NCBI GenBank assembly: GCA_008692225.1
Contig: VICG01000005.1
Span: forward strand, 62,001-126,000
Direction of reading: 5' to 3'
DNA from: Monilinia fructicola
Lineage: Eukaryota > Ascomycota > Leotiomycetes > Helotiales > Sclerotiniaceae
DNA: 64,000 bases
The notes below the pieces were generated by a model. The model did no database searches and was not told the DNA's origin. It was given only the letters and a program-made list of their open reading frames with translations. Shown one piece after another: positions 36,646 to 64,000 of the stretch (positions are counted from its first letter, which is position 1; the number at the start of each line of letters is the position of its first letter). A program made the translations under genes and the position numbers.

Positions 36646-37789
36646 AGGTCGGATGGACGTCCATCTGAGCTCCCGTGGACTGGGAAAAACGTCGGGTGGA
36701 CTAGTGGGGCAAAAATTATAAATTTGCATAAATTTGCATAAGATTCATAAAAATTCATAAAAAAATTATGCAAAAATTGATTATTAATAAATTATAAATT
36801 TTTGAGATTAGATTCTAAACGTTTTCTAAACGTTTTGAAAACGTTTTGAAAACGTTTAGAAAACGTTTAGAATCTAATTTTAAATTATTATTAAAAAAAT
36901 AATATAATTTTCTTATATAAATTTATATTAATTTTATTTTAAATTAAATCATATTATATATATATATAATTCTTAAAATATTTTAATAATATTTAAATAA
37001 TATATATATATATATATATATAATTTAAATAAATTTATATTAAATAATTTATTTTTAATAAAGCTTTATTAATTAATATATATTTAATTTTAACTTTATT
37101 TATTTATTACTTTATTAATATTTAAATATTAAATATAAATATATTATTATTATTATTAAAATATTTTTAAATATTTTTAAATATTCTTAATTAGATTCTA
37201 AACGTTTTCTAAACGTTTAGGATTTAATTTAAAGCTTTTATTAAAAAATTAATATAATTATCTTATATAAATTTATATTAATTTTATTTTAAATTAGATT
37301 ATATCAAATATTAATAATTATAATATTTTAAGAATTATATATATATAAATATATAATTTATCTTTTAATAAAACTATATATAATTAATATATATTTAAAT
37401 TTATTATTATTAATATATATTTAAATTATTATTTAATTAATATTTTAATATTAAATAATTAGTTTTTTAATATTAAATATAAATATATTAATATTATTAT
37501 TAAAAAAATTTTAAATTTTTTAATTAGATTCTAAACGTTTCGAAAAACGTTTCGAAAACGTTTAGAAAACGTTTAGAAAACATTTCGAAAACATTTCGAA
37601 AACATTTCGAAAACGTTTAGAATCTAATTAAGAATATTTATAATTTATGCAAAATTTTATGAATTTGCATAAAATTATACATTCGGTTAAACGTCGGGTG
37701 GACTTGTGTAACGTTTTTGCAGTTGACCTTTTTTTTTTAAGAGACGCCCCACAGGTCCATATGAGCTCAAATGGACGTCCATCCGACCT
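36646..37789. mobile_element. nested inverted-repeat element (short TIR element with A+T-rich insert)
   Basis: The ends are inverted copies of AGGTCGGATGGACGTCCAT followed by (C/T)TGAGCTC (36646 plus, 37789 minus). Inside, a 20-bp direct repeat with one mismatch (AAACGTCGGGTGGACTNGTG) occurs at 36687-36706 and 37689-37708. Between the direct repeats lies about 980 bp of A+T-rich DNA with inverted ATTTTATGCAAATT-like arms and three clusters of TTAGATTCTAAACGTTTT palindromic units (about 36806, 37193, 37524). Removing the insert and one direct-repeat copy leaves a compact TIR element of about 140 bp, so a second element probably inserted into a small MITE. No transposase frame. Confidence 0.75.
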
Positions 37790-40700
37790 ACATACCGGAT
37801 TCACTTGGCTGAAAACGATGATGATTGATTGATTGATTGATTGATTGTTCAAAATGATTGATTATATTATTTTGCTTTGCTTATTAATGGTGAAAGTAAA
37901 AGAGAGAAAAGAGAGGAGTGGAAAGAAAGGGAAGGGAAAGGAAAAGATGAGAAAGAAAAGAGAAAGAAAGGAATTAAATAGAATTGAGAAATTAATATAT
38001 ATATATATAATTATTTATTTTAAGAAAGTTATTTATATTAATACTATAAGTATCTACTCGAGTATCTTTAATAAATAAATAAATATATAATTTAAAAACT
38101 ATAATAAATATCTACTTTATAGAATCTAGATATTCTATTATTTATTATTTATTATAATAAGAGAACTTTATTATATACTTTTATATAAGGAAATCTTTTT
38201 ATATATAGGAATTATATTTCTTTAATTAATTAATAATTATTAATAAATTATTATTTATTAATTTTTATTATTTATAAAACTATAATAACTTTATTTATAT
38301 ACTTTATTTATTTTAACTATTTTAATTACTTTAAAGATATAATATAATATAATTAATTCATTAGTAACCCTAATATTATTATTATACTATACTATATATT
38401 TTATACTTAGTATACTATATATATATATTATTTATATATATTACTATTAATATCTCGCTTTCTAATTTAATTCCCTACTAAAATATTACATCTATAATAC
38501 TTTATAGACTATACAATATAGACGAAGTATAATAATAAGTATACAAGCCTTTATCACCTCATATTAAATATCCATCCATTATTCATCCATCATCCATCCC
38601 ATCATCAATCCACTCCCTTCGTTTCAGTCCTCCAAGCCACAACCCAAGAAAGACAAACCTACAGACGGGTTTACCGAAATATCGGCGCAAGTCCTTGGTC
38701 CATTATCAAGCATTACCTCCCCGTGGGCCGTGGACATTCAATATAAGTAATACACACAACGTAGCTATAGTATACATCAAGGACCTACCCACCACCAGGA
38801 TATAATCAATCCATGAATTTTGAAGCGGAAGATATTAAAATGTTAGATGGGTGTCTACCTAGGGTACGTACGGATATAATACGACCTATACTTCCTATTA
38901 TATAATATATAATTAGAAAAGCTTATTTATTATATATTACCCTATGAATCCTATAAACATTAGTAAATTATTTTTTATTATTTTTTTTATTACTTTTTAT
39001 TATCTTTTATTATTTTTTATTATTTTTTATTATTTTTTATTATTTTTATTATTTTTATTATTTTTTTATTTTTTTATTATTTTTTATTATTTTTTATTAT
39101 TTTTTATTATTTTTTATTATTTTTTATTTTTTATTATTTTTTTATTATTTTTTATTATCTTTTATTATCTTTTATTATTTTTATTATTTTTTTTTAATAT
39201 TTTTGATTATCTTTTATTATCTTTTATTTCTTTTATTTTTTCTTTTATTTTTTTTAATATGTTTAATTATTTTTAATTATTTTTAATTATTTTTAATTAT
39301 TTTTAATTATTTTTAATTATTTTAGTTATTTTTAATTATTTTTATTAAAAAAGTTATATATATATTTAAAGCTTTTTACAACGAATATTATATATCTAAG
39401 TATATAATATCTTATTATACTTTAGTTTAAATTAATTTTAAATTAAAACAATATTATAAATAAAAAAGATCTTTTAAAAAAACCTTTTCTTTTTTTAGCT
39501 TTTTAATTTTAATTAATTAATTTTTAATAAGTTACTTTAATATATAATTATAATAATATAAATTTTATAAATAATTTTCATATAACTCTAAAACTAGAAA
39601 TTCTATTTTTCTATAATCTTTTATTACCCTTTATAAAAAAAATCGTAAAAACTTAAAATCTTTATAATCTATCAATAACTATATCAAAAAGCCTTGGTTA
39701 AAATTGAAAAAATATATATTCATCTTTGATAATGTTATTAATACATTCAAATGGCCGTTTATAGTGTGAAATGCTGGCCAAATGAGGGGGCGAGAAGGAC
39801 CTAGGGTAGGCGACTTCGAGTGATGGATGATACAGGGTCTAGAGAAACATCGGGGTCTCTACTTTAGCGGTATATTGATCCTGTTATATCATATCAATCT
39901 TTATCCATTATTTCATCGATTCATGTATTCATGTATTCATATATCCATTCACCTTAACGCGATTTGAGGATTCATTTCGGGGGTCGGGAGAAAGTTGGAG
40001 GAGATGTTTTCGGTTTGGGATGTCATGGGATAGGATCTGAGGCGAGGAAGGGGAGGCGGAAGGATGATATAAAATATGTTTTTTGGGATTTATTTGAAGA
40101 GCAGATGGATAGGTAAGTAGGTAGGTAGGTAGGTAGGTAGGTAGGTAGGTACCTAGGTAGGTATCTTCTTCAACGATAATAAACAGTGACGCGGAAGTAG
40201 AAAGAGAAGAACGGGCAATTGATATTTAATCTAGTGTGCTGATTGATGGATGGATGGATGGATGAATATCTTCACTGCTATCTAATATCTATGCATGTGG
40301 ATGACTGAGAATGGAATTGAGGATAAGATTTAGAACAACAACAACAATAACAATAACAACAACAATAAAGATAATCAGATACTCCATTCCCACAATCTGG
40401 GATCAATATTGATATCTATCATTCACATGGGGCAGATAATCTTGAATCCATTGATCCCATCCATACTATACCATAGTGCTACCACCTCGTACATCCATCC
40501 ATGCATCCATCCATCTATTAACCTTATTAGTATGTATCCATCACGATTACCAATCATCCATCATTCCAATCCCCCATAGTAGTGGTAGGTACCTAAGTAG
40601 GTAGGTACTACGGAGGACAGCATAGTAAGTAAATTCACGTGTTGGATCTACTTATAACAAATCACAACAATCTTCTTCGTTCATCTATCGTTTCCTTCTT

Positions 40701-54707: not shown

Positions 54708-55692
54708 ATGTCTACCACCATCACCGAACAAGCTCCCGTGGAGCATATCACCAAGCTCGAAACAAATCCCACCACACCTCATGATATTCAAGCAGTCTTA
54801 AACTATTACCTCGACCCAGAAGATGGTAGCCCACCAGAGCCAAACTACGTGAACAATCCTAGCTCGTACGATCGCCCGGTACACGCTGTCAACGTTACCG
54901 TACACGATATTCGCGGCTCAGAAGATCAATATACACTAGATACAACTGGCTTTCAAGTTGTTAAACATGTTAGCCAGGAGAAGGATTTCCTGGACGAAGA
55001 GAGAATCAAGAGTATTTACTACAAAGAGACGGAAGAATTGTTGAAAAAAGAGTCAGTAGTTTCCAGCTTTTCCAGCCCACCTTCAATGCCGGGACATTTA
55101 CTTACAAACAAGTAGAACCGGGGCTTCCAAAATCTTCATTTTCGACCACACAATACGTCGCGAATCTATTGACAAGGGACGCACAGTACCCACTTCTACT
55201 GATGCCGTCAATAAAAACCCCACTCCTGTTGCCACGCGCGGCCCCGTTCAGCGCGTTCACATCGATCAATCCTATGGCGCCAGTCCCCGTCGTGTAACAC
55301 ATCATCTTCCTGACGAAGCCGAGAGACTTCTCAAAGGAAGATTCCAAATCATCAACGTCTGGCGACCAATCAAGACAATTCTTAAAGATCCACTCGGTGT
55401 CGCAGATGCCAATTCAGTTGAAGATAAGGATCTTGTTCCAATCAAGCTGATCTATCCTGATCGCGAAGGAGAGACTTACTCTGTTCGCCATGCTCCGGGT
55501 CACAAGTGGAATTACTTGTATAAGCAGACGCCTGAAGAGGTGCTTCTGATCAAGTGTTTTGATACTAAGACCGATGGAAGAGCAAGACGTGTGCCACATA
55601 GTGCGTTTGTGAATCCGGAACATGAGGGAGAGAAGACGAGAGAGAGCATTGAGGTTAGGACATTGGTTTTTTATGAAGATGATACGGAGTAG
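54708..55692 (+). CDS. CmcJ/AsaB-like (GA4 desaturase family) putative oxidoreductase
   Basis: Two exons, 54708-55051 and 55116-55692, give 306 residues. The intron 55052-55115 (GTCAGT...GTAG) joins KKE-TGASKIFIFDHTIRR. Family blocks seen: VHDIRG, DEERIKSIYYKETEELLKK, IFDHTIRR, RVHIDQSYGASPRRV, FQIINVWRP, RHAPGHKWNYLYKQTPEEVLLIKCFDTK and a C-terminal RRVPHSAFVNPEH. Proteins of this type (7-alpha-cephem-methoxylase P8 chain-like, AsaB/GA4-desaturase-like) are common in fungal secondary-metabolite clusters and are thought to be hydroxylases/desaturases. It lies 1.4 kb from the repeat-peptide gene, so a role in that cluster is possible but unproven. Confidence 0.85.
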
Positions 55693-57080: not shown

Positions 57081-57453
57081 TCAGGCATTGCGCGTGTCTG
57101 CCCATTCGATCAGGGGGGCAGGTGAAGCTTCGTCCGTGTCAGTGGATCTTATACTCTTCTTGGTATCTGCCCATTCGAGTAAAGGAACAGGCAAAGCTTC
57201 TTCGTCATCTTCAGTTGCTCTCATCACTTTCTTTGTATCTGCCCATTCTATCAAGGGCGCTGGTGATGTCTCATCGACCACAACGTCATTATCTGATATG
57301 AGTTAATAGGAGATCTCGAGAAAAGATGCGGTAGGAAAGGGGCCATGAATATTTCATAATTTGAAAGGGCTATTGCATACCAGAGCGAGATCCTAGGGGA
57401 CTTGCCACGGCAAAAGTTGCCATAGACCAGGTGATAAAAAAGCTGAATTGCAT
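57081..57453 (-). CDS. candidate RiPP precursor: secreted three-repeat peptide
   Basis: Two exons (57381-57453, 57081-57292) separated by an 88-bp GTATGC...ATCAG intron encode 94 residues. Residues 1-17 form a signal peptide (MQFSFFITWSMATFAVA, cleavage before SPLG). The mature part has three repeats with period 23-24: SPAPLIEWADTKK (residues 34-46), LPVPLLEWADTKK (58-70), SPAPLIEWADTRN (81-93). Acidic spacers (ATEDDEEA, STDTDEA) separate them, and KK pairs follow the first two. Signal peptide plus near-identical short cores with dibasic sites is the layout of fungal dikaritin-type precursors processed by Kex2-like protease. There is no Tyr in the repeats; Trp is the only aromatic. A UstYa-type gene and a P450 lie within 7 kb. 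Product unknown. Alternative: a Kex2-processed repeat protein without modification. Confidence 0.82.
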
Positions 57454-59203: not shown

Positions 59204-60893
59204 ATGTCTACTACTTCTCACCGGGGACTACTTGCACTTGGCAGTAGTTTACTGGCACTTTCTGTCGTTTCCGTAATTCTACGCTTCTATTCTCGCCGGA
59301 TTCAAAAGGCACCACTGAAAGTAGATGATTGGATCATGATACCATGCCTTGTATGTCCTGTCACCAGTTACTCTCCAGAGCCAGCTAAGCTCTAGTAACT
59401 TGGAAAAGTATTGACCAAATCCTCTCGTACTGACAATAAATCTCCAGCTGCTTCTTGGAGGCTCCTGCGGTACGGCATTTTATGGTGAGACAACATCTCG
59501 TTAGCCCAGCGGGTCACCCACATTCGATTAATAGATATCAAATGCTGACTTCTCTTTTCGACAGGCGTAAATAAAAAGATTTTGGGCTACCCTACGCCAA
59601 GTGACATGGAATTAGTGCTAGCGACTGCCGCAACAGCATCAAAGGTCCTTACATAATCTTTCATCTCCTTTGGTTTCCCTACTGGTAACATAAACTAATA
59701 CTTGTTCAGCTCTACTTTACCTTTGACCTATTCTCAGTTCTGACTCTGGGCTGTGTCAAGATCAGCGCCTTATTCTTCTATTACCGGATATTTTGCGAAA
59801 ACGGACGTCGAGATGCCTTCCGAAATCTCGTCATCATAAGTATCGTGGTGTGCTGCCTTTGGGTTGTAGCGTTTACTATTCTGGTTGGCCTGTCCTGCGG
59901 GACTCACTTCTCAGCACTTTGGACTTCTAGCAAGGCGGTATTCCTGCAGTATTGTGGGAAGAGACCTCACCAGTTCTTGCTCAGTATGTCTATCTCTGAC
60001 TTTTTGCTGGATTTTTGGATCATCGCTCTTCCTATCCCGCAGGTATGTTGCGATTGCAACAAGCGATCCGCTCAAACTTCCCTTGTCCTTCATGGGCTAA
60101 TGAAAACAGATTTTGAAAATAAAAACCAGCCTCTCACGTCGTCTCGCTATCATTGGAGTTTTTCTCCTAGCATTTGTGTTAGTTCTTTCCTGTCCGGCGT
60201 TCGCCGAAGAGGTGTCCATGTACTGCTACAATCTGTTTCTCATTTTACTGACATGATATAATGCAGAGGGTTCGGAGCTTGCATTGCGAGATTGGCAGTT
60301 TTCGTCGAACTTGATCATCGTAAGGATTAGGTTTCCTCCACTTCCTACTCAAAACTTACTCATCACTATGGCCTGATCATGTCTAACCTTATTCGTAGTT
60401 CCCGCGACCGCAAAGGTGGACTCGAGATGTAAGTAAAAGCCTCTGGCATTCACTTGGCATTCCTGTGTTGTTGTTGTTGCAACATGTGCATGATATTTGA
60501 TCGTTAAACTAATAGACAACAGTGACCAATACTAAATCCATTTACCTCTCCCTCCTCGAAGTAGGGCTTAGTTGCATTGCGGTCAATCTTCCTTCCTTAT
60601 ACTATCTCTCGAACAAAGTCACACCTGAGAACGTTCTTCGTAGTGTACGCAGCATTGTTTCTCTACGTTCTGTTGGCTCTCGCAGTTCTCAAAACAGCAA
60701 ACGATACCAAAAACCAAGAGGAAGCAAGGATACCCAAAGCATTGATAGTCCTTCGTTATCCAACTTACGACCAGATGACGTGGGCGCTATTGAAACACAT
60801 GCGATGCATGATTTGGAAAGCACCGGACGCGTCTCTGTTCCGGATGATGTGCATGTCACAAAGACCCTATCACAATCCTCACAGAGAATGTGA
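59204..60893 (+). CDS. SAT4/PTH11-type seven-transmembrane protein (fungal rhodopsin-like domain)
   Basis: Eight exons reconstructed: 59204-59350, 59448-59484, 59565-59644, 59710-60042, 60110-60177, 60267-60319, 60399-60428, 60523-60893, giving 372 residues. Family blocks: N-terminal helix SLLALSVVSVILRFYSRR followed by VDDWIMI, KISALFFYYRIF, LDFWIIALPIPQ-ILKIKTSLSRRLAIIGVFLLAF, and LLEVGLSCIAVNLPSLYYL, then a cytoplasmic Ser-rich tail. SAT4-domain proteins include PTH11-like putative receptors and members of mycotoxin clusters; ligand unknown. The last intron acceptor (60522) is chosen because the nearer AG gives a stop. It diverges from the peptide precursor gene and converges on the P450. 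Confidence 0.82.
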
Positions 60894-61439: not shown

Positions 61440-63059
61440 CTAAACCCGGAATGCGACCTTCACCCCGTTTCTACTCTCCGTCAAAGCTTTTACCAATCCT
61501 ACATATTCTTTGACTGGATCTCTATTCTCAATCATTTCAAACTCTCGTGTGAGCCTAACCAGAACATATATAGATTGTGTGATTACCTGCTGCTGAGCAG
61601 GACAGACTCTCGGCCCTCCAAGAAATGGTAAGAACTCCCACTGAAACTGTTTTTTGGGATCAAACCATCTGTGAGGGTTGAATTTATTGACATCCTCCCC
61701 CCAAACATCTGGATCATGATGAAGGCCCCATAAGTTCAAAGCAACCACGGTTCCCTTTTCCACAAATATGGGGGATTTTCCTGAGGGCCCACCACCTGTG
61801 GGGAGAATGGTATCTCTCGTTGCGGTCCGGTAGATACGCCCAGAGGGTCCTTGGTATCTGAGAGTTTCATAAAGCACATACTTAAATAATTGAAGAGATT
61901 TGAGAACCTCCAAGGTTAATTCTCTATCGCCCAATGCGAAGCTATCGGCTCGTAGCTGTGTCCAAATGTTTGGATTTCTCGCAAGGTGAAATAGTGTATT
62001 CGAAAGCATAACAGCACTTGTATCACGAGCTGGGATAAAAACATTCAAGATTTGAAATCGAAGGGAGACAGGATCACGTATTTGCTTGGCCATTTCCAGC
62101 AGAAGGATATACCGTTTTGGGTGCTGTGAATTTTCATCCACGACTGCAATTTTCGATTCAGGATTGTCGGTCTCTTTCAGTGCCCGCTCAACATGAGCAT
62201 CAATATAGGAGTGGACTGTTCCACAAGCTTTCTTCCAACTTTTGTCAAAGTTATGTAGGATTAGTTGCAATTTTGACAGTAATCTACGTTTTCCTACCCC
62301 AGCAAGCGAAGCATCGAATGCCGCAAGTATCTCTGCCGAGTTATTTGGATCGTTCGCTAATTGAGAATCTATTGACTCTCCCAACAAAAACTCTGTAGCT
62401 GTATCCAAAAACTATACATCAATTAGCAAGCCAAAATTGGTAGAAATGCCAGGGGACAGTACCAATTTTCGTAATGGGAGCTGGAGATCAATGCTGGTTC
62501 CGTCTCGAGGAATCAAGCCAATCAGCCTATCCACGTGCCTTTCCATGAACTGGACATCCGAGATCTCAGCCTTCGAGAACGTAGGCCGGATAAGCTCTCT
62601 AGCGTGCTTCCATTCGGCGCCATTCATAAAGAATATGCCTTGACCGAAGAAAGGAGTAGAATGCGTGGTCGAAGCTTTACCCCAGTCTTGGAAGGCGAGT
62701 GAAGTGACCTGTTGAAAATTTCGTGCCTCCATTGTATTTATAATTTTTTTGCCCATAAAATTTTCCTCCCATGTCTTTCCGTACAAACCAAAATGGTCCA
62801 TGTATAAATCCATTAAGCTACCATTTTTGGTGGCATCTGTCCGATCTCTTACCAGTTCCGATTCTTTGACTTGAGGGTATGATGGAGGAGTCTCGCAGCC
62901 ATGTTCATTAATGACCTTGCGGGCTGATCTATATGAGTTTATCCGTTGCAAAACATAGGTAAGTAGGATGAGGGGTAGAATGTATCCAAATGCAATCAGT
63001 GAATTGAACATGTTGAGATCGTGCGAGTCGACAAATTTTCTAACCACCATTTGTGACAT
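61440..63059 (-). CDS. cytochrome P450, CYP52-like
   Basis: Heme monooxygenase of about 522 residues from two exons (62463-63059 and 61440-62411; intron 62412-62462, 51 bp, GTACTG...ATAG, joining LPLRKL-FLDTATEF). A single N-terminal membrane anchor (FNSLIAFGYILPLILLTYVL) indicates ER location. I-helix PARDTSA at about 326-332, ExxR (ETLR) at about 381-384, FNPHRW, and heme loop FLGGPRVCPA with Cys near 469. Overall resemblance is to CYP52-type fatty-acid/alkane hydroxylases, but the loop residues after Cys (PA) and its place beside a UstYa gene suggest a pathway enzyme. The first in-frame ATG is at 63059. Frame intact. It diverges from the UstYa-like gene. Confidence 0.88.
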
Positions 63060-63703: not shown

Positions 63704-64000
63704 ATGACTCTTCAGGAGTATAAGTTAATACACCAAAACGATACAACCCCAGAAATCGAGACTTTATTCTATCTCAATTTACAGCGACAACTTCGTCTCT
63801 TCAAAAGGGGATTTTTAGCTACTGGTATCCTGCTTTTGGTCTCGCTATTCTTCAATGCGCTATGGACTTACCAGACTCTACCATGGACATCAAAGTCCAC
63901 AACTGCACCAACCAAATACAGTATGCTTCCAGAATATAGTCAAAATTGGTGCAATTTGCTAAGAAGGGTGACAGCTGGTCTTGTGAGAAATATCTCGACT
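63704..64000 (+). CDS. UstYa family (DUF3328) oxidase, 5' part only
   Basis: The gene is cut by the window end. It starts MTLQEYKLIHQN, has one membrane segment (FLATGILLLVSLFFNALW), then TKY. A 54-bp intron (63921-63974, GTATGC...GACAG) joins TKY-TGLVRNIST, the KYAGL-type block that follows the helix in UstYa proteins such as those of the ustiloxin and phomopsin pathways. The reading is also open through the intron, but only the spliced form keeps this block. The His-containing catalytic motifs (HxxHC) would lie beyond the window, so activity cannot be judged. UstYa proteins carry out oxidative cyclisation of RiPP core peptides. Its partner may be the repeat precursor at 57 kb. Confidence 0.75.
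   Translation, partial: MTLQEYKLIHQNDTTPEIETLFYLNLQRQLRLFKRGFLATGILLLVSLFFNALWTYQTLPWTSKSTTAPTKYSMLPEYSQNWCNLLRRVTAGLVRNIST

Follow-up and report, generated by a model that had tools for sequence, protein, structure and literature searches.

A Trp-centred, Tyr-free repeat precursor near a UstYa oxidase gene in Monilinia fructicola, a candidate dikaritin-type RiPP

In the papers cited here, the dikaritin pathway runs from secretion of a precursor through a Kex2 cut after a basic pair and peptidase trimming to cyclization by UstYa (PMC9233826, PMC10512285). The definition in PMC10512285 rests on a repeat precursor plus UstYa, with Tyr forming no part of it, and victorin and epichloecyclin are grouped there with the dikaritins; a narrower, five-gene sense includes a tyrosinase, a methyltransferase, and several DUF3328 genes (PMC12048977). 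The dikaritins described in these papers are crosslinked at Tyr and victorin at Phe, whose ring is bonded to an internal Leu (PMC9233826). UstYa-type enzymes also act in polyketide and NRPS pathways (PMC12048977). Among Kex2-processed repeat proteins, those of type P-3 combine W with P in the repeat, have a UstYa (DUF3328) gene nearby in four of seven cases, and are listed from Fonsecaea, Cladophialophora, Galerina, Psilocybe, and Coprinellus (Umemura 2020, PMC7329392).

Here we describe a gene of Monilinia fructicola whose product we read, at a probability of roughly 0.62, as a Kex2-processed repeat protein and the precursor of a secreted peptide modified by UstYa, in other words a dikaritin-type RiPP precursor with Tyr-free cores. 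The gene lies in a 64,000-nucleotide stretch of contig VICG01000005.1 (C5, positions 62,001 to 126,000), hereafter the window. Its anatomy, its conservation, and its co-location with other genes are observed; the processing steps, the crosslink, and the product we infer. On the minus strand, positions 57081 to 57453 encode 94 amino acids and a stop once an 88-nt intron is removed, giving MQFSFFITWSMATFAVASPLGSRS / DNDVVVDETSPAPLIEWADTKKVMRATEDDEEALPVPLLEWADTKKSIRSTDTDEASPAPLIEWADTRNA (exon 1 / exon 2), with the following features.

57381..57453, minus strand: precursor exon 1, with the start codon and the signal-peptide-like MQFSFFITWSMATFAVASPLGSRS, judged by N-terminal hydropathy
57293..57380, minus strand: precursor intron, 88 nt, GTATGC...CAG, with relatives from Monilinia and Botrytis co-linear across its predicted junction
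57081..57292, minus strand: precursor exon 2, with three repeats, spacers, and stop
57234..57260, minus strand: repeat 1, APLIEWADT, then KK
57162..57188, minus strand: repeat 2, VPLLEWADT, then KK
57093..57119, minus strand: repeat 3, APLIEWADT, then RNA-stop, with no dibasic pair after it

Re-derivation from the DNA confirmed as real what an earlier, sequence-only reading had observed: after splicing, the product has 94 residues, a hydrophobic N terminus where that reading saw a signal peptide, three repeats of the type (A/V)PL(I/L)EWADT, KK after two of them, and acidic spacers (between repeats, VMRATEDDEEAL and SIRSTDTDEAS). The splice at 57293-57380 that it predicted is likewise backed by relatives that align across the junction. 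At the N terminus, in the putative signal peptide, a hydrophobic stretch, FFITWSMATFAVA, recognized by hydropathy, is followed by AS-P and is kept in relatives. The gene had been called unannotated-looking; this does not hold, as it is already annotated as hypothetical protein EYC84_001397, in which the first 70 residues agree with the 94-aa product and a different splice then replaces repeat 3 by unrelated residues. In a further M. fructicola record, MFRU_026g00120, all 94 residues are present and 91 agree, the three differences including A36V in repeat 1. The precursor is matched one time in the whole genome (44.0 Mb, 20 contigs), no paralogues being found elsewhere in it.

Among about 5.8 billion proteins searched, there were 16 candidates, of which 12 are relatives with E values of ≤10 (four Monilinia, one Ciborinia, and seven Botrytis/Botryotinia records), which are 55 to 97% identical to the precursor and co-linear with it over the splice junction. 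Among these 12, leader residues A17, P19, and L20 are invariant, and A15 and S18 nearly so. The Trp is kept in 31 of the 32 annotated repeats (repeat 1, 12/12; repeat 2, 11/12; repeat 3, 8/8), repeat 3 being missing as annotated in four records, two of which end at PTPLIE. Neither Tyr nor Phe occurs in the M. fructicola repeats, and Tyr is absent from the repeats of the family with one exception, RYAKK in Ciborinia, where it follows the Trp. Because the repeats lack Tyr, UstYa would have to use another core residue. Repeat-versus-repeat comparison gives pS of 0.79 to 0.92 and pN of 0 to 0.10, rough values from nine codons per repeat; high pS with low pN indicates that the copies are old and that selection at the protein level has kept them alike. 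Recent tandem duplication of the repeats was rejected, since synonymous sites are near saturation, as was a chance or low-complexity repeat, given relatives co-linear across the splice and repeat differences biased to synonymous sites.

Among the 12 relatives, a basic pair stands after repeat 1 in 10 and after repeat 2 in 11; after repeat 1 it is KR in all seven Botrytis/Botryotinia records, versus KK in M. fructicola. The pair gives way to NK or TK after repeat 1 in Ciborinia and M. fructigena and after repeat 2 in M. laxa, and Monilinia has no basic pair after repeat 3. An Arg three residues past the pair (R49, in VMR or IAR) is invariant among the 12, so that the basic pair is not the sole conserved basic site. 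Both this invariance and the substituted pairs in relatives that keep the Trp would suit a small, acidic, repeat-bearing secreted protein that acts at full length, for example as an effector in the apoplast, in which case the basic pairs would be incidental. We consider such a protein unlikely, as the pair is kept at 21 of 24 sites after repeats 1 and 2, UstYa and P450 genes lie near the precursor, and the spaced, near-equal repeats are as in Kex2-processed precursors. The sequence-only reading had further held that dikaritin precursors have exactly this plan. The general plan of the precursor bears this out; the word exactly goes too far, as KK is a lesser Kex2 site (PMC6339444), no pair follows repeat 3, and the repeats have no Tyr or Phe.

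For the genes around the precursor, Pfam searches covered 18 frames or models of the window, and protein-database relatives were sought for the precursor, UstYa, and Fung_rhodopsin. From left to right, the order is CmcJ/NvfI oxidoreductase, precursor, Fung_rhodopsin, P450, and UstYa, with an amino-acid permease (PF13520) on the left flank.

54708..55692, plus strand: CmcJ/NvfI-family oxidoreductase, 306 aa, intron 55052-55115 (NF041278, 8.4e-79; PDB 7eus, 1.7e-48)
59204..60893, plus strand: Fung_rhodopsin (Pth11-like) seven-helix protein (PF20684, 1.1e-31), hand-spliced to 363 aa, some exon edges approximate
61440..63059, minus strand: cytochrome P450, 522 aa, intron 62412-62462 (PF00067, 4.3e-45)
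63704..64000 and on to C5:126604 beyond the window, plus strand: UstYa oxidase, 283 aa (PF11807, 2.6e-26), with HNLHC and HVTHC

UstYa is the third gene from the precursor, 6.25 kb off, with the Fung_rhodopsin and P450 genes between; for comparison, Umemura 2020 gives an average of 3.09 genes, with 22% of 7878 such precursors near a UstYa (DUF3328) gene (PMC7329392). With 17 UstYa loci in 44.0 Mb, the chance of falling within this distance of one is ~0.5%, and the presence of this gene, which crosses the right edge of the window and so lay out of sight of the sequence-only reading, strengthens the main inference of that reading, a dikaritin-type RiPP. The UstYa intron (64211-64259 on the window scale, donor GTTGGT) was placed via Botrytis deweyae and other relatives; the protein is 82% identical in alignment to an orthologous B. 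deweyae protein, the database row of which (78%) comprises 20 sequences under one displayed name. A PDB sequence search with UstYa returned nothing better than E 0.32, and an AlphaFold model of the Botrytis orthologue (29 of 42 relatives in the alignment) is too weak for use, at a mean pLDDT of 67 and a pTM of 0.44. The CmcJ/NvfI oxidoreductase is a possible cluster member as a candidate tailoring enzyme. Two Rutstroemia relatives of the Fung_rhodopsin protein carry the name "plasma membrane Pth11 protein." To the right of UstYa, no gene-like ORF of at least 130 aa was seen by eye over ~21 kb (65 to 86 kb), after which a RasGEF-like gene appears at ~86 kb.

Set against the described systems, the locus shares with ustiloxin, phomopsin, and asperipin-2a a putative secretion leader, repeated cores, dibasic sites, and a nearby UstYa-family gene, and with ustiloxin also a P450 in the neighbourhood. 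A repeated core, putative Kex2-type dibasic sites, and a predicted UstYa with HXXHC motifs are present in M. fructicola, while the Tyr or Phe that would serve for the crosslink is absent from the core. Unlike in dikaritins, the Trp is nearly invariant and flanked by Glu/Asp, the precursor has only three repeats, KK replaces KR, UstYa is single, and a Fung_rhodopsin gene stands between precursor and oxidase. Contig C5 has no match at E ≤ 0.001 to tyrosinase (PF00264) or S41 peptidase, and the single PF11807 gene at the locus, together with the missing PF00264 match, places it outside the narrower five-gene sense. Victorin, from Cochliobolus victoriae, likewise has a non-Tyr aromatic, but Phe where the M. 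fructicola cores have Trp. The spacing from the aromatic residue to Leu/Ile looks comparable in the two. By description, the precursor can also be set beside type P-3, with which it shares W together with P in the repeat; the present family is from Sclerotiniaceae, outside the genera known for P-3.

In the dikaritin-type reading, the signal peptide would carry the precursor into the ER, and a Golgi Kex2-like protease would cut behind KK (in Botrytis, KR) to release three fragments, each terminating in or close to ...PL(I/L)EWADT. These would be trimmed by carboxy- and aminopeptidases, and a membrane-anchored UstYa oxidase would then act on the trimmed core, with further oxidations added by the P450 and perhaps also by the CmcJ/NvfI oxidoreductase. 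As the conserved aromatic residue is Trp and victorin offers the precedent of a Phe-Leu bond, the simplest guess is a UstYa-made bond between the side chain of Trp and the Ile/Leu that precedes it by two or three residues, which we offer by analogy and as tentative, the odds being against it. The core may also be oxidized without cyclization or be unmodified. The precursor is probably the source of an undescribed small modified peptide.

Further repeat precursors were sought among 2920 ORFs from the window and other loci, most of the latter chosen because they surround UstYa genes, in a scan that left out ORFs with one residue above 30% and favours strongly repeated proteins. Two were found.

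C7:1565499-1565849, plus strand: second repeat precursor, with five copies of a unit that has AELW at its end, ahead of KK, KR, RK, or stop
C1:2437794-2438210, minus strand: third repeat precursor, with EAAPWDEKRWDEKR repeats, each unit having two Kex2-type sites

The rest of the scan output comprised alternative frames of the precursor DNA, ORFs in microsatellites, and, at another locus (L043), a single ORF that has no dibasic pairs. The C7 precursor lies between two UstYa genes, the nearest UstYa match being 1.8 kb away; for the C1 precursor this distance is 2.3 kb. Both have Trp, repeats without Tyr, and hydrophobic N-terminal leaders in hand-made models. That all three Trp-bearing, Tyr-free repeat precursors lie beside UstYa is suggestive, the sample being small. 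In a laxer scan of 14 DNA pieces, no precursor appeared in the pieces from C14 (5 kb) and C4 (4.5 kb), those from C12 and C6 being partly covered. At the C7 locus (1559 to 1568 kb), the repeat precursor and its two UstYa genes are accompanied by a P450 and by the Fung_rhodopsin paralogue that best matches the window gene, scoring 97 bits where the next single match reaches 28. This locus was also considered as the place of the closest UstYa paralogue and rejected, as the paralogue at C9:1409 kb scores higher in sum (132 versus 92 bits); the nearest Fung_rhodopsin match to the latter is 355 kb away. The best paralogue of the P450 is at C13:1947 kb, with C12:1571 kb among the next. At C12:1571-1579 kb, we observed a P450 (pieces 42% and 29% identical to the window P450), two UstYa genes, and one Fung_rhodopsin gene.

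Conservation of the neighbourhood was judged from locus tags and contigs in database rows. In each of three species, relatives of the precursor and of Fung_rhodopsin share a contig and have consecutive tags: M. laxa (EYC80_002774/002775), M. fructigena (DID88_001064/001063), and Botrytis tulipae (BTUL_0053g00340/00350). Relatives of UstYa and Fung_rhodopsin are consecutive in Cytospora mali (VM1G_02812/02813), share a 44.8-kb contig in Lachnellula suecica, and fall on separate contigs in Glarea lozoyensis and Hymenoscyphus fraxineus; in Botryotinia calthae, the contigs of 36 and 12 kb are too short to decide linkage. The precursor-UstYa pair is visible in these rows in M. fructicola only. The sequence-only reading had proposed to look for homologues beside UstYa genes, and this is borne out for M. 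fructicola itself, with UstYa crossing the window edge; in other Sclerotiniaceae, the neighbour seen to be kept is Fung_rhodopsin. None of the 42 UstYa rows, several of which are without a species name, is named M. laxa, M. fructigena, or Ciborinia. UstYa relatives from B. calthae and Botrytis fragariae, at 46 to 47% identity, are on other contigs than the precursor and are probably paralogues.

This pattern bears on a rival in which the precursor yields linear, unmodified, pheromone-like secreted peptides that the Fung_rhodopsin protein could sense, UstYa and P450 serving another product or none. In its favour are the neighbour seen in three other species, which is Fung_rhodopsin, the precursor-UstYa pair being visible in M. 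fructicola only, and the separate contigs of the B. calthae and B. fragariae UstYa relatives. The dipeptides after the basic pair in Botrytis, IA and TA, moreover belong to the XA class, which Ste13 cleaves off pheromones; those of M. fructicola are VM and SI. Ascomycete alpha-pheromone precursors have a conserved Cys and Trp in the core and Ste13-type XA/XP dipeptides after the Kex2 site; the present family does not fit as to the Cys, 11 of the 12 precursor relatives having none past residue 20 and DID88_001064 having one in its tail. The 78% of 7878 repeat precursors that lack a nearby UstYa gene also lend weight to linear peptides (PMC7329392). We nonetheless hold them to be rather unlikely here: a complete UstYa gene is in place in M. 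fructicola, the C7 locus again unites repeat precursor, UstYa, P450, and Fung_rhodopsin, and UstYa and Fung_rhodopsin relatives adjoin in C. mali and share a contig in L. suecica.

A decaying or non-functional cluster remnant would agree with the lack of UstYa rows named M. laxa or M. fructigena and with the M. fructigena precursor, which looks degraded as annotated and adjoins a Fung_rhodopsin of only 246 aa. For M. fructicola we judge this very improbable, as the precursor, P450, and UstYa genes read complete with one intron each, alongside a hand-spliced model for Fung_rhodopsin, and the two M. fructicola records agree at 91/94 precursor residues. In M. fructigena, DID88_001064 has a W-to-R change in repeat 2 and is without repeat 3 as annotated, and its neighbour DID88_001063 is a shorter Fung_rhodopsin; the cluster may be in decay in that species.

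The dikaritin-type reading draws on the constrained repeats, the kept Trp and basic pairs, UstYa as the third gene, the C7 locus, and the victorin precedent. It is weakened by the lesser KK site, the pair substitutions, the missing tyrosinase and S41 peptidase matches on C5, the roles of UstYa-type enzymes in polyketide and NRPS pathways, the precursor-UstYa pair being seen in M. fructicola only, and the decayed-looking M. fructigena precursor. It is also weakened by Trp being no commoner in UstYa-linked repeat precursors, at 20.5% versus 24.5% in others (PMC7329392).

As a control for the recurrent Fung_rhodopsin gene, exon matches were merged into loci at 10 kb and Fung_rhodopsin genes at 1.2 kb; 5 of the 111 matches in the Fung_rhodopsin list are below the family cut-off, and for P450, scores cover 92 of 155 candidates. 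Fung_rhodopsin lies within 7 kb of 6/17 UstYa loci (0.47 expected), 6/24 ketosynthase (PF00109) loci (0.65 expected), and 7/68 P450 loci (1.89 expected). With control loci within 15 kb of UstYa left out, UstYa differs from P450 (5/64; Fisher P = 0.009) and not from ketosynthase (6/23; Fisher P = 0.73). A specific UstYa-Fung_rhodopsin module was rejected, as ketosynthase loci are equally rich in Fung_rhodopsin, which points to a companion of secondary-metabolite loci in general. Such company is not new in print, since a PTH11-type GPCR gene is among the genes of one putative Trichoderma RiPP cluster (PMC7099791).

Pth11-like proteins belong to the fungal GPCRs, which are mostly orphan receptors (PMC13308352), and the cluster offers a concrete candidate for a ligand-receptor pair. 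With Fung_rhodopsin as common near ketosynthase loci, the pairing is less likely than at first, and we drop its strong form. We also find improbable the wider proposal that Sclerotiniaceae cassettes of precursor, oxidase(s), P450, and Pth11-like protein make Trp-centred, Tyr-free UstYa peptides that the seven-helix protein senses or guards against; this would place a ligand, its maturation enzyme, and the receptor, from an orphan class of fungal GPCRs, next to one another.

Among the literature matches listed, open-literature titles and abstract starts mention neither the precursor, a Monilinia RiPP, nor UstYa acting on Trp. The M. fructicola genome paper lists biosynthetic clusters, and in its main text, as accessible, "UstYa" and "ribosomally" are absent and "ripp" occurs only in RIPper, a repeat-mutation tool (PMC8959702). 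The class is known; new, as far as seen, is the conservation through a fungal family of a core that is centred on Trp and free of Tyr, a type that may stand among the 7878 precursors of PMC7329392. A product, if found, would demonstrate action of a UstYa oxidase on Trp, of which the same titles and abstract starts hold no report, and would define a peptide family common to brown-rot and grey-mould fungi, both crop pathogens. Elsewhere in the window, positions 36817-37622 and 38967-39347 hold an AT-rich stretch in which tandem AAACGTTTTGA/AAACGTTTCGA 11-mers flank a 350-base repeat, as well as an array of 10-base repeats.
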